Assembly: GCF_025950525.1 (NCBI RefSeq) | Contig: NZ_JAPDGS010000005.1 | Coordinates: forward strand, 1 to 64,000 | DNA: 64,000 nt | Source of the DNA: Stagnihabitans lacustris | GTDB lineage: Bacteria > Pseudomonadota > Alphaproteobacteria > Rhodobacterales > Rhodobacteraceae | Direction: 5' to 3' | Shown here: positions 27,269 through 47,972 of the stretch, in pieces | Position numbering within the stretch: the first letter of the stretch is position 1 | How the letters are laid out: each line of letters starts with the position of its first letter | Position numbers and translations under genes: made by a program | Notes under the pieces: generated by a model | The model's input: the letters and a program-made list of their open reading frames with translations, nothing else | Databases searched by the model: none | Told to the model about the DNA's origin: nothing

Positions 27269-30210
<2,942 letters not shown>

Positions 30211-30214
<4 letters not shown>

Positions 30215-30498
30215 TTGAAGGCCTCCGAAGGGATGGGACCGTAGGGGTTCGGGCCGGGGAAAGAGCGTTGGCGGGCGAAGAAGAAGAGCGGCGTGGCGAA
30301 GATCAGGAAGGTGAGGATCGCGACGGTGCCATGTGTCCAATCCGCGATCGGGGGGCGGGCATAGACCATCAGGGCGCCAGGCAGGAGGACGGGCACCGAG
30401 AGTGCCGCCAACACCACGGCCGAACGCGTGAAAAGGCGCGGACCGCAGCGGTCCTGCCCATTCGATGCATTCTGCCAAAGATAGCGCAATTCTTTCAC
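30211..30498 (-). CDS. small two-helix membrane protein upstream of sucA
   Basis: 95 residues. GTG start at 30498 with GGAGA at 8 bases. Two membrane helices (about 25-45, LFTRSAVVLAALSVPVLLPGALM; about 55-72, TVAILTFLIFATPLFFF) and a short basic/proline-rich tail. Stop overlaps sucA start by four bases, so translation is coupled. Function unknown; sits between sucD and sucA in an otherwise purely enzymatic run. Confidence 0.7.
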
Positions 30499-30564: not shown

Positions 30565-31449
30565 TCACTTGCCCATGGCTTTCATGACGGCCTCGCCCAG
30601 CGTGGCCGGGCTGTCGGCCACGACGATGCCGGCGGCCAACATGGCCTCGATCTTGCTTTCCGCGTCGCCCTTGCCACCGGCAACGATGGCGCCGGCATGG
30701 CCCATGCGGCGGCCCTTGGGTGCCGTGCGGCCCGCGATGAAACCGGCGCAGGGCTTTGACCGCCCGCGACGTGCCTCATCGGCCAGGAACTGCGCGGCTT
30801 CCTCTTCGGCGCTCCCGCCGATTTCGCCAATCATGATCAGGGCTTCGGTTTCGGGATCGGCCAGGAACATTTCCAGCACTTCAAGGTGTTCGGTCCCCTT
30901 GATCGGGTCGCCGCCGATGCCCACGGCGGTGGATTGGCCCAGACCCAGGTCGGTGGTCTGCTTGACCGCCTCATAGGTCAACGTGCCCGAACGGGACACA
31001 ACCCCCACCTTGCCGCGACGGTGGATATGGCCCGGCATGATGCCGATCTTGCAGGCGCCGGGGGTGATGACGCCGGGGCAGTTCGGCCCGATCAACCGGG
31101 TCTTCGAATTGATCAGCGCGCGCTTGACCTTCATCATGTCCAGCACCGGGATGCCTTCGGTGATGCAGACGACCAGCGGGATTTCGGCGTCGATGGCCTC
31201 CAGGATGGAATCCGCGGCGAAGGGCGGCGGCACATAGATGACCGAGGCATTGGCCCCGGTGCGCGCCACGGCGTCATGGACCGAATCAAAGACCGGCAGG
31301 CCCAGATGTTCCGTCCCGCCCTTGCCGGGCGTCACGCCGCCGACCATCTGCGTGCCATAGGCAATCGCCTGTTCAGAGTGGAACGTGCCCTGGGACCCGG
31401 TGAAGCCCTGGCAGATCAGCTTGGTATGTTCGTTGACGAGAATGGCCAT
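30565..31449 (-). CDS. sucD: succinate-CoA ligase subunit alpha
   Basis: 294 residues. CoA-binding Rossmann domain at the N-terminus ([24 protein letters not shown]), then [37 protein letters not shown] and the phosphohistidine region [18 protein letters not shown], whose HAG His is phosphorylated. With SucC it makes ATP or GTP from succinyl-CoA. Start behind GGAG. Confidence 0.98.
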
Positions 31450-32075: not shown

Positions 32076-33269
<1,194 letters not shown>

Positions 33270-33373: not shown

Positions 33374-33404
33374 TGTGATCACAGGAAAAAATTTTGTGAT
33401 CACA
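33374..33404. promoter_or_regulatory. paired TGTGATCACA operators upstream of sucC
   Basis: Identical 10-bp palindromes at 33374-33383 and 33395-33404, centres 21 bases apart (two helical turns), each extended by T's on the left and AG on the right. They lie 105-135 bases upstream of the sucC start. The same arrangement precedes sdhC at 43603-43633. A DNA-binding dimer of the GntR or Crp/Fnr type is a fair guess, not proven. Confidence 0.7.
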
Positions 33405-36993: not shown

Positions 36994-38073
<1,080 letters not shown>

Positions 38074-42973: not shown

Positions 42974-42980
42974 GGTTTTT

Positions 42981-43607
42981 GTGATCACAGCCCTGCTCCG
43001 AATCGCATCGCTGGTGGTCCTGGCCACTCCGGGCCTGGCGCAAGACCTTGCTGTGACCGGCGGTCTTGGCCTTGGCCTCACGACCGAGGCCGATCCGGGC
43101 GCGCGGCACAGGGCAGGGGGCTGGATCGAGGCGGGCTTTGGCGGCGGCTATGTCGGGCTGTCTTATGACGCCTATCAGGACAGCGATCTGAACGACTCCG
43201 AGGCCTATCTCGGCTATGCCGCAACCCTGGGCCTGGTCGAGGTGAACGGCGGCGTCACCCGCGACCTGATGGCGGATCGGACCAGCCTGGACCTGTCCCT
43301 GGCCTGGCCCCTTGGCGATTTTTCGACCGAACTGGCCTTGGCCCATGACCCCAAGGCCGGAAGCACCGATCAAAGCCTGACCCTCGCCTATGCCCGCCCG
43401 GTCTCCGAGGCGCTGACCCTGACCGCCAGCCTGACCCTGGACCGCGAGGATGGCGCCTTTTCGCAAGACTGGGCAATCGGCGCCAATCGGACCTTGGGCG
43501 ATAGTTCTGCCCTGGCCGGATATCTCGCCTGGGGCAGCGACGAAGACCCCTGGTTGGGTGTCGATCTGTCCTGGGAGGTCACTTTGCTGGGTGGCGGGGA
43601 TTTGTGA
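42981..43607 (+). CDS. exported beta-rich protein, probably outer membrane
   Basis: 208 residues with a GTG start inside a TGTGATCACA palindrome. Signal peptide ITALLRIASLVVLATPGLAQ, then alternating strands with repeated L-T/L-S patterns (VTGGLGLGLTTEADPG, SLDLSLAWPLGDFSTELALAHDP, LTLTASLTLDREDG, WLGVDLSWEVTLLG). Looks like a small beta-barrel; no family recognised. Its end overlaps the first sdhC operator. Confidence 0.7.
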   Translation: MITALLRIASLVVLATPGLAQDLAVTGGLGLGLTTEADPGARHRAGGWIEAGFGGGYVGLSYDAYQDSDLNDSEAYLGYAATLGLVEVNGGVTRDLMADRTSLDLSLAWPLGDFSTELALAHDPKAGSTDQSLTLAYARPVSEALTLTASLTLDREDGAFSQDWAIGANRTLGDSSALAGYLAWGSDEDPWLGVDLSWEVTLLGGGDL

Positions 43608-43633
43608 TCACGATTTTTCAGACTGTGATCACA
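43603..43633. promoter_or_regulatory. paired TGTGATCAC(A/G) operators upstream of sdhC
   Basis: TGTGATCACG at 43603-43612 and TGTGATCACA at 43624-43633, centres exactly 21 bases apart as at sucC. They lie 145-175 bases upstream of the sdhC start; the first overlaps the end of the preceding gene. An AAGTTTTTC-like inverted GCTAAG/CTTAGC pair is present at 43711-43727, nearer the gene. Confidence 0.7.
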
Positions 43634-43777
43634 AACGGAAGATTCTCATCCCGATCCCCTCGTCGCCCGGAAATTCACGCCATATCCTGCGTGACAGATG
43701 AATTTTTGACGCTAAGAAAAACTTAGCTTCTGCAGCGCAGCATCTGCGCGCAGGCGGACCAGAGCGAGAGGGCAGCC

Positions 43778-44179
43778 ATGTCCAGTAAAACCACTTCGGG
43801 CAAGCGCGTCGAACGGCCGCTTTCGCCCTTCATGATCGGGCCTTACTATCGGCCGCAGATCACCTCGATTTCCTCGATCCTGATCCGGATCACAGGGCTT
43901 GGCCTGATGGCAGGGGTGATCCTGGCCGTCTGGTGGCTTTTGGCCGCGGCGATTTCGGACGAGTATTTCGCAATTGCCAATGCCGTCGTCACCTCGTGGT
44001 TCGGCAAGCTGGTCTTCACCGGATCGCTTTGGGCGGTCTGGTATCACTACCTGGGCGGGCTACGTCACCTGTATTACGACGCTGGCCACGGGCTAGAGAT
44101 CAAGACGGCCGAGCGTCTGGGCTGGGCCATGGTGATCGGGTCGGTCGTGTTGACCGTCCTGACGATCCTGATCGTATGA
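43778..44179 (+). CDS. sdhC: succinate dehydrogenase cytochrome b556 subunit
   Basis: 133 residues, three membrane helices. RPLSPFMIGPYYRPQITSISSILIRITGLGL (quinone-site S and R) and WYHYLGGLRHLYYDAGHGLEI with the haem-region histidines are typical. Anchors the complex with SdhD. First gene of the sdh operon, behind the paired palindromes; GAGAGGG ribosome site. Confidence 0.95.
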   Translation: MSSKTTSGKRVERPLSPFMIGPYYRPQITSISSILIRITGLGLMAGVILAVWWLLAAAISDEYFAIANAVVTSWFGKLVFTGSLWAVWYHYLGGLRHLYYDAGHGLEIKTAERLGWAMVIGSVVLTVLTILIV

Positions 44180-44569: not shown

Positions 44570-46372
44570 ATGACCGCTTATCCCTATGAAGTGCATGAAT
44601 ACGACGTGGTCGTCGTGGGCGCGGGCGGCGCGGGTCTGCGCGCGACGCTGGGCATGGCCGAACAGGGCCTGCGCACGGCCTGCGTGACCAAGGTTTTCCC
44701 GACGCGGTCGCACACCGTCGCGGCACAGGGCGGCATCGCGGCCTCCTTGGGCAACATGGGGCCGGACTCGTGGCAGTGGCATATGTATGACACCGTCAAA
44801 GGGTCCGACTGGCTGGGCGACACCGACGCGATGGAATACCTGGCCCGTGAGGCCCCCAAGGCCGTTTACGAGCTGGAACATTACGGCGTGCCGTTTTCCC
44901 GCACCGAAGAGGGCAAGATCTATCAGCGCCCCTTTGGCGGCCATACGACCGAGTTCGGTGAGGGCCCGCCCGTGCAGCGCACCTGCGCCGCCGCCGACCG
45001 CACCGGCCACGCCATCCTGCACACGCTGTATGGCCAGAGCCTGAAGAACAATGCCGAGTTCTTCATCGAATATTTCGCCATCGACCTGATCATCACCGAA
45101 GGCCGCTGCACCGGCGTCGTCGCCTGGAAGCTGGACGACGGCACGATGCATGTCTTCAACGCCAAGATGGTGGTCCTTGCGACCGGCGGCTATGGCCGGG
45201 CCTACTTCTCCGCGACAAGCGCCCATACCTGCACCGGCGACGGCGGCGGCATGGTGGCGCGCGCGGGCCTGCCGCTGCAGGATATGGAGTTCGTGCAGTT
45301 CCACCCGACCGGGATCTATGGCTCGGGCTGCCTGATCACCGAAGGCGCGCGGGGCGAGGGCGGCTATCTGACCAACGCGAACGGCGAACGCTTCATGGAG
45401 CGTTATGCGCCCCATTACAAAGACCTGGCGCCGCGCGACTATGTCAGCCGCTGCATGACGCTGGAAATCCGCGAGGGCCGCGGGGTTGGCGCCCATGGCG
45501 ACCATATCCACCTGAACCTGTCGCACCTGCCCAAGGAAACGCTGGACCTGCGCCTTCCCGGCATCAGCGAAAGCGCCCGCATCTTTGCTGGCGTCGACCT
45601 GACCAAAGAGCCGATCCCGGTCCTGCCCACCGTGCATTACAACATGGGCGGCGTGCCCACGAACTATTGGGGCGAGGTGTTGAACCCGACCCATGACAAT
45701 CCCGATGCCACTTTCCCGGGGCTTATGGCCGTGGGCGAGGCGGGCTGTGCCAGCGTCCATGGCGCCAACCGCCTTGGATCGAACTCGCTCATCGACCTCG
45801 TGGTCTTTGGTCGGGCGGCGGCCATCCGTGCCGGCCAGATCGTCAACCCGAAAGAGGCGGCCGCGCCGATCAACAAGCCCGAGATCGACCGCGCCCTGTC
45901 GCGCTTTGACGGGCTGCGCCACGCCAATGGCCAAACCCCCACCGCCGATCTGCGGCTTGAAATGCAGCGCGCGATGCAGTCCGACGCCGCCGTCTTCCGC
46001 GCCTCTGCGACCTTGGCGCAGGGCGAGGCCAAGATGACGGAAATCGCGGGCAAGGTCCCCGACCTGAAAGTCACAGACCGCTCGCTGGTCTGGAACTCCG
46101 ACCTGATGGAGACGCTGGAGCTGACCAACCTGATGCCCAACGCTCTGGCCACGATCTACGGCGCCCATGCCCGCACCGAAAGCCGCGGCGCCCATGCGCA
46201 TGAGGATTTCCCCCACCGCGACGACGCCCAGTGGCGCAAACACTCGCTGGCCTGGGTCGATGGGGCCAAGGTGCGGCTGGATTACCGCGCCGTCCACACC
46301 GCCCCCCTGACCACCGAGGCCGAGGGCGGCATCAGCCTGAAGAAAATCGCCCCGGCGGAGCGCAAGTTCTGA
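44570..46372 (+). CDS. sdhA: succinate dehydrogenase flavoprotein subunit
   Basis: 600 residues. FAD-binding [38 protein letters not shown] with the His (about residue 48) that carries covalent [24 protein letters not shown] and [26 protein letters not shown] are catalytic/FAD regions. Its flavinylation is served by SdhE (3886). A repeat element with a strong hairpin follows immediately, before the next gene of the unit. Confidence 0.99.
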
Positions 46373-46904: not shown

Positions 46905-47185
46905 TGCGCCTTGCCCTCCTGCTGTCCCTCGCCGCCTGTGGCCCGCTGCCCCTGGCAGAGGCCGAAAGCCAATGCCTGCCCCAAGCCCGCCTGGCGCAAA
47001 GCCCGCGCGGAACGGTGGGCATCGGCGCAGGCTCCAACGGGGCGGCCGGGGCTTTCGACGTCACGATCTCCAGTGACTACCTTCTGGGGCGCAATCCCGA
47101 CGCGGTCTATGGCGACTGCGTCCGCGCCCGCTCGGGGCAATCGCCCTCCCGCCCGTTTTCCTCCTTGCCGCAATCCCGGATGTAA
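46901..47185 (+). CDS. putative small lipoprotein
   Basis: 94 residues. [10 protein letters not shown] at the N-terminus is a short lipobox-type signal, then [24 protein letters not shown] and [23 protein letters not shown]; three Cys after the lipid Cys-type residue. ATGATG start overlapping the DUF3052 stop. Between sdhA and sdhB; function unknown. Confidence 0.7.
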
Positions 47186-47195
47186 AGGCTGTCCC

Positions 47196-47972
47196 ATGGT
47201 CCAGTTTTCGCTCCCCAAGAATTCCAAGATCCGCACTGGAAAAACTTGGCCCAAGCCGGATGGCAAAAACATCCGCAAATTCCTTGTCTACCGCTGGTCG
47301 CCCGATGATGGCGAAAACCCGCGGGTGGACAGCTATTTCATCGACCTCGACAGATGCGGGCCGATGGTTCTGGACGCGCTGATCAAGATCAAGAACGAGA
47401 TCGACCCGACCCTGACCTTCCGCCGCTCGTGCCGCGAGGGGATCTGTGGGTCCTGCGCGATGAACATCGACGGCATCAACACCCTGGCCTGTATCTATGG
47501 CCTGGACGAGGTGAAGGGCGATGTCCGCATCTATCCCTTGCCCCATATGCCGGTCATCAAGGACCTGATCCCGGACCTGACGCATTTTTATGCGCAACAT
47601 GCCTCGATCATGCCCTGGCTGGAAACCAAGACCAACCGCCCCGCCAAGGAATGGCGCCAGTCGATCGAGGATCGGTCGAAACTGGACGGGCTTTATGAAT
47701 GTGTGATGTGCGCCTCATGCAGCACCTCTTGCCCGTCTTACTGGTGGAATTCGGACAAATACCTGGGGCCGGCGGCGCTGCTTCATGCCTATCGCTGGAT
47801 CATCGATTCGCGCGACGAGGCGACGGGCGCGCGTCTGGACGACCTGGAAGACCCGTTCAAACTCTATCGCTGCCACACGATCATGAATTGCACCAAGACC
47901 TGCCCCAAGGGGCTGAACCCGGCCAAGGCGATTGCCGAGATCAAGAAGATGATGGTCGAGCGCGCGGTTTAA
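47196..47972 (+). CDS. sdhB: succinate dehydrogenase iron-sulfur subunit
   Basis: 258 residues. [2Fe-2S] ligands in [24 protein letters not shown]; [4Fe-4S] and [3Fe-4S] ligands in [12 protein letters not shown] and [17 protein letters not shown]. Transfers electrons from FADH2 to quinone. ATG 47196 with AAGG at 9 bases. Ends in a strong terminator. Confidence 0.98.

Follow-up and report, generated by a model that had tools for sequence, protein, structure and literature searches.

The window considered here, namely the whole stretch of 64,000 nucleotides from Stagnihabitans lacustris, raises the question of whether two TCA-cycle operons lying on opposite strands are served by a single regulator through operator sites of the same sequence and spacing. 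On the plus strand, the sdh operon begins with sdhC (43778-44179, Pfam Sdh_cyt) and includes sdhA (44570-46372, Pfam FAD_binding_2 and Succ_DH_flav_C) and sdhB, the ORF of which spans 46911-47972 when read from its first TTG (Pfam Fer2_3 and Fer4) and probably has its true start further downstream. On the minus strand, the suc operon begins with sucC (32076-33269, assigned with Pfam) and includes sucD (30565-31449, NCBIfam PRK05678) and sucA, encoding 2-oxoglutarate dehydrogenase E1 (27269-30259, start approximate; NCBIfam PRK09404). The sdh pair precedes sdhC and consists of the distal site TGTGATCACG at 43603-43612, which extends over the stop codon (43605-43607) of the ORF lying upstream, and the proximal site TGTGATCACA at 43624-43633, which is conserved across Rhodobacteraceae. 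The suc pair consists of two TGTGATCACA sites recognized by sequence match, the proximal at 33374-33383 and the distal at 33395-33404, and lies 105 bp from the start codon of sucC. The four sites carry no strand assignment, and the spacing is 21 bp in both pairs, which are located 10 kb apart. Sequence and coordinates hence agree with the earlier note, which had described a pair before sdhC with a spacing identical to that of the suc pair, as well as two TCA operons on opposite strands, 10 kb apart, that share site and spacing. The note was also right that mdh, located in between (ORF at 36994-38064 on the minus strand, Pfam Ldh_1), has no such pair, for its upstream region contains no operator site and the closest match there has mismatches at 4 of 10 positions.

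A lone TGTGATCACA at 42980-42989, without partner, extends over what is probably the GTG start codon of the ORF at 42981-43607. The product of this ORF has a signal peptide and is weakly porin-like, and its stop codon is the one overlapped by the sdh distal operator.

Within the 4.05-Mb assembly, the sdh and suc places are the only 21-bp pairs found with up to three mismatches allowed, and reversed-pattern controls give none. Pairs had to be nearly exact in this search, so that weaker or single sites of AkgR, the candidate regulator discussed below, would be missed elsewhere in the genome. A broad regulon in which paired sites would serve carbon or respiratory genes at large was rejected, there being no third pair at this tolerance, and the expectation that other respiratory or carbon genes should be included fails in the species' own genome, where the two TCA operons alone are paired. 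Single copies of TGTGATCACA number eight in the genome, three of which belong to the two pairs. The four located outside the window were examined as further regulon members and rejected: two lie within coding ORFs, one straddles the edge of an ORF and one is found ahead of a further GntR gene. The last of these (G000:C4:6053-6062, equivalent to L003:1501-1510) is followed about 15 bp on by a second TTTGATCACA and lies opposite an ABC transporter gene, and the gene just after it is of the GntR/FCD type; it possibly reflects an FCD paralogue with a related operator and autoregulation.

Of 198 Rhodobacteraceae genomes, sampled at almost one per genus, 164 contain the exact pair when gaps of 11-13 bases are allowed (a spacing of 20-22), and reversed-pattern controls yield no match. 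With larger gaps (N14-44) the same pair appears in six of the 198 genomes only, and in one of them, G191, the match is the outer span of a triple array spaced at 21+21. A separate draw of genomes at the class level gave the exact pair in all four family members and in none of the 285 genomes outside the family; in one of the latter, G271, the reversed control pattern matched twice on each strand. The spacing was compared in 73 upstream regions, of which 64 have 21 bp and nine have 20 bp (41 and 5 of 46 regions for suc, 23 and 4 of 27 for sdh). The pair lies mostly 105-113 bp from the start codon of sucC (range 96-154) and 103-179 bp from that of sdhC. Arrays of three or four GTGATCAC sites, with successive spacings of 21, 21 and 26 bp, precede sucC in five loci (L154, L155, L157, L160 and L164), which come from records under the names Pseudotabrizicola and Gemmobacter nectariphilus and from one Rhodobacteraceae bin.

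The genes behind these pairs were assigned in the own genome and in 38 of the 163 other matching family genomes, using the window, 20 regions and 19 further short loci from the family search (11 of the 30 short loci duplicated places in the 20 regions and were counted once). All 61 distinct places obtained in this way are at TCA-cycle genes, 59 before sucC or sdhC, one before sucA (L067, where the pair sits between mdh and sucA) and one before fumC. With the class-level draw, in which six of six places are at sucC or sdhC, the assigned places amount to 67 of 67 at TCA-cycle promoters. The fumC place (L064:1501-1531) is the third pair of genome G042 and precedes a class II fumarate hydratase scoring above the NCBIfam cut-off. 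The notion of a wider regulon consequently receives no further pair from the own genome and one additional gene, fumC, from one other genome examined.

A GntR regulator called AkgR, RSP_0981 in Rhodobacter sphaeroides, reportedly activates TCA genes according to Imam et al. in mBio, 2015. Alongside the observed sites, their exclusivity and conservation, their co-occurrence with a regulator and their phasing to a promoter-like element, we consider it very probable that the sdh and suc pairs are AkgR operators, at which two dimers on one DNA face would activate both operons from upstream. Each 10-bp palindrome would take one AkgR dimer and, since palindromes 21 bp apart are separated by two helical turns, the two dimers would be placed on the same face of the DNA, where they probably bind cooperatively. 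At sdh the sites would lie upstream of the core promoter, at predicted positions of approximately -97 and -118. From there AkgR could jointly increase the transcription of sucCD-sucA and the sdh operon, presumably at times of demand for the oxidative steps leading from 2-oxoglutarate to fumarate.

The promoters in this scheme are predictions, made on sets of regions that excluded L064. That of sdh in the window spans 43691-43718 on the plus strand (GTGACA at 43691-43696, 16 bp, TAAGAA at 43713-43718), its -35-like element beginning 62 bp from the centre of the proximal operator. An inverted repeat, GCTAAG-AAAAA-CTTAGC at 43711-43727, overlaps the predicted -10 region. Among the 27 sdh regions, a GTGAC-N-TA promoter-like element is found 62-64 bp from the centre of the proximal site in 17 and at 82 or 84 bp in two, eight regions lacking a full element; 500 shuffles placed at most two regions in one 3-bp bin. 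For suc, the first promoter pattern matched one of 46 regions, and a looser TTTA-N-TA element lies 50-51 bp from the site in eight of the 46, a number that leaves the suc promoter weakly supported; no convincing element was found for the window's own suc promoter. These promoter distances differ from one another by approximately 11 and 20 bp, values near an integral number of helical turns.

This geometry bears on the alternative that AkgR binds the pairs and represses, instead of activating, the operons. Paired palindromes are often used in repression. Against this, the predicted -35 element of sdh follows downstream of the sites at a phase-locked distance of 62-64 bp and PMC6365646 describes AkgR as an activator, so that we regard repression as unlikely. 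Staying with activation, a more specific reading is that AkgR is a phase-locked array regulator, with dimers placed at helical-repeat multiples from each other and from the promoter to form a one-face, two-dimer activating unit that nearly the whole family has kept for just two operons. We offer this reading tentatively and would give it somewhat less than an even chance; it draws on the 21-bp spacing, the arrays of three or four sites in some genera and the -35-like elements located approximately 51, 62-64 and 82-84 bp away.

The protein most likely acting at the pairs, judging from comparative evidence, is P0001, a GntR/FCD protein in which both the GntR and FCD domains were found. It is encoded at G000:C11:208260-208946 on the minus strand, unlinked to the sdh and suc operons, and the 13 FCD-domain regulators of the genome are all located on contigs other than that of the window. 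No NCBIfam model scores above its cut-off for P0001, and a search of solved structures retrieved distant GntR relatives only, the best being McbR (4p9f). Its orthologues form a clear class, with E values of 1e-77 or better against approximately 1e-55 for the next best, and were called with a threshold of E<=1e-60. On this basis, 160 of the 198 family genomes have both regulator and exact pair, 15 the regulator only, four the pair only and 19 neither (Fisher p=8e-14, uncorrected for phylogeny and thus overstating the evidence, because related genomes are not independent).

The 34 genomes without exact pair were searched for a degenerate one (up to three mismatches), which is present in 12 of the 15 that have the regulator vs none of the 19 that lack it, and 16 of the 18 degenerate places are at sucC or sdhC; the other two, both in the regulator-bearing G155, are not at these genes and may be due to chance. 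Another regulator-bearing genome, G061, has a pair at a spacing of 22 bp or one base more, which makes it the thirteenth of the 15 with a pair of any kind. Of the 23 regulator-negative genomes, 21 retain the sucC gene. Four of these bear the pair still before sucC without a strong regulator hit, namely G096 (77% complete), G033 (74%), G019 (91%) and G114 (100%). In the 17 with sucC and no exact pair, the best upstream pair has at least 5 of 20 mismatches, compared with 6-11 in letter shuffles. One of them, G157, has five mismatches with place and spacing unchanged, and G109 and G017 have single sites with one and two mismatches, respectively; such sites look like decayed remnants.

Regulator and pair lie within 20 kb on one contig in at least 15 genomes among the matches listed (G001, G010, G013, G042, G051, G063, G090, G091, G093, G120, G121, G124, G154, G175 and G197); in G051, the sdh pair and a close relative of P0001 are 5 kb apart. 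Elsewhere regulator and pair are separated by 57 kb to 2.4 Mb or, as is the case in the own genome, are on separate contigs. The 10-kb flank contains sucC in 18 of 54 named loci that have a P0001 orthologue, not counting L131. In the latter locus, from Stagnihabitans tardus, a sucC paralogue at L131:3081-4202 lies near the AkgR orthologue; it shares 52% identity with the sucC of the window and is not part of the TCA operon. Linkage, family and co-occurrence are the basis on which we presume P0001 to be the orthologue of R. sphaeroides AkgR (RSP_0981), the genome scan with P0001 having returned no R. sphaeroides locus among its matches. Autoregulation of akgR was considered and rejected, for the best match upstream of the own akgR has mismatches at 4 of 10 positions; at 13 other loci, the best upstream match has four mismatches in 12 and three in one.

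A different GntR/FCD paralogue could be envisaged to bind the pair in place of the AkgR orthologue, for example P0002 (G000:C11:612870-613523), which is 37% identical to P0001 in the own genome and belongs to a family that is also widespread; helix-turn-helix features are common to FCD regulators. However, genomes such as G006, G016 and G051 carry two exact pairs although they lack a strong P0002-type protein, their best hits (1e-33 to 1e-39) being comparable to cross-hits to the AkgR orthologue, and the target list published in PMC4344238 names RSP_0981; this alternative is therefore very improbable. That the matches arise from chance or a general repeat, as the shortness of the palindrome and its eight single copies could suggest, can be practically dismissed in view of the two pairs alone at up to three mismatches, their presence in 164 of 198 family genomes and their absence from all 285 genomes outside the family.

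Returning to AkgR, the proposal of the earlier note that one regulator governs the oxidative cycle is strongly supported for both oxidative TCA operons, because the pair is confined to these two operons in the own genome, is conserved there across the family and coincides with the published predicted targets of RSP_0981/AkgR. An operator of fixed two-site geometry is tied to a single regulator in almost the entire family, with a very narrow regulon dedicated to the oxidative branch of the TCA cycle, and this geometry makes it possible to test directly whether an FCD-type GntR protein activates cooperatively from one face of the helix. Since regulator and targets were already known, the biological surprise is small. 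The details that we did not trace in the literature are the conserved 21-bp pairing, the promoter phasing and the arrays of three or four sites. In the partial texts available on AkgR, RSP_0981 and the motif, the 21-bp pairing is not described, and the primary AkgR paper may describe it. Titles and abstract openings retrieved with the exact ten-letter motif hold nothing evidently about this kind of regulation, and among the records on GTGATCAC and GntR only PMC6365646 bears on AkgR sites.

The closest known system is the AkgR regulon itself. According to PMC4344238, the predicted targets of the GntR protein RSP_0981 in R. sphaeroides are sucCD, sdh and 2-oxoglutarate dehydrogenase, and PMC6365646 reports GTGATCAC as an AkgR site. 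The window matches this system in its targets and in the presence of the GTGATCAC operator, and the genome has a GntR-family regulator, P0001, with GntR and FCD domains. A difference is that the regulator lies here on another contig, away from the operons, whereas the order of locus tags in R. sphaeroides (RSP_0962-0968 for 2-oxoglutarate dehydrogenase, succinyl-CoA synthetase and mdh, RSP_0974-6 for sdh and RSP_0981 for the GntR protein, as given in PMC4344238) suggests the regulator-sucC-sdh neighbourhood seen in the linked genomes. CceR (RSP_1663), of the LacI family, is also predicted there to regulate sdh and mdh, but its motif, [AGT]GTTN6-8AAC, is another inverted repeat and has no match in the scanned upstream stretches of sdh, suc and mdh in the window. 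A GntR-like protein of deoxyribonate oxidation in Pseudomonas simiae, PS417_07240, is stated to be 32% identical to AkgR and resembles the present system in its conserved GTGATCAC palindrome, yet it differs in having one site described, with another catabolic cluster as target (PMC6365646). The present finding extends a known regulon to another genome and is marked by an unusually conserved paired geometry.
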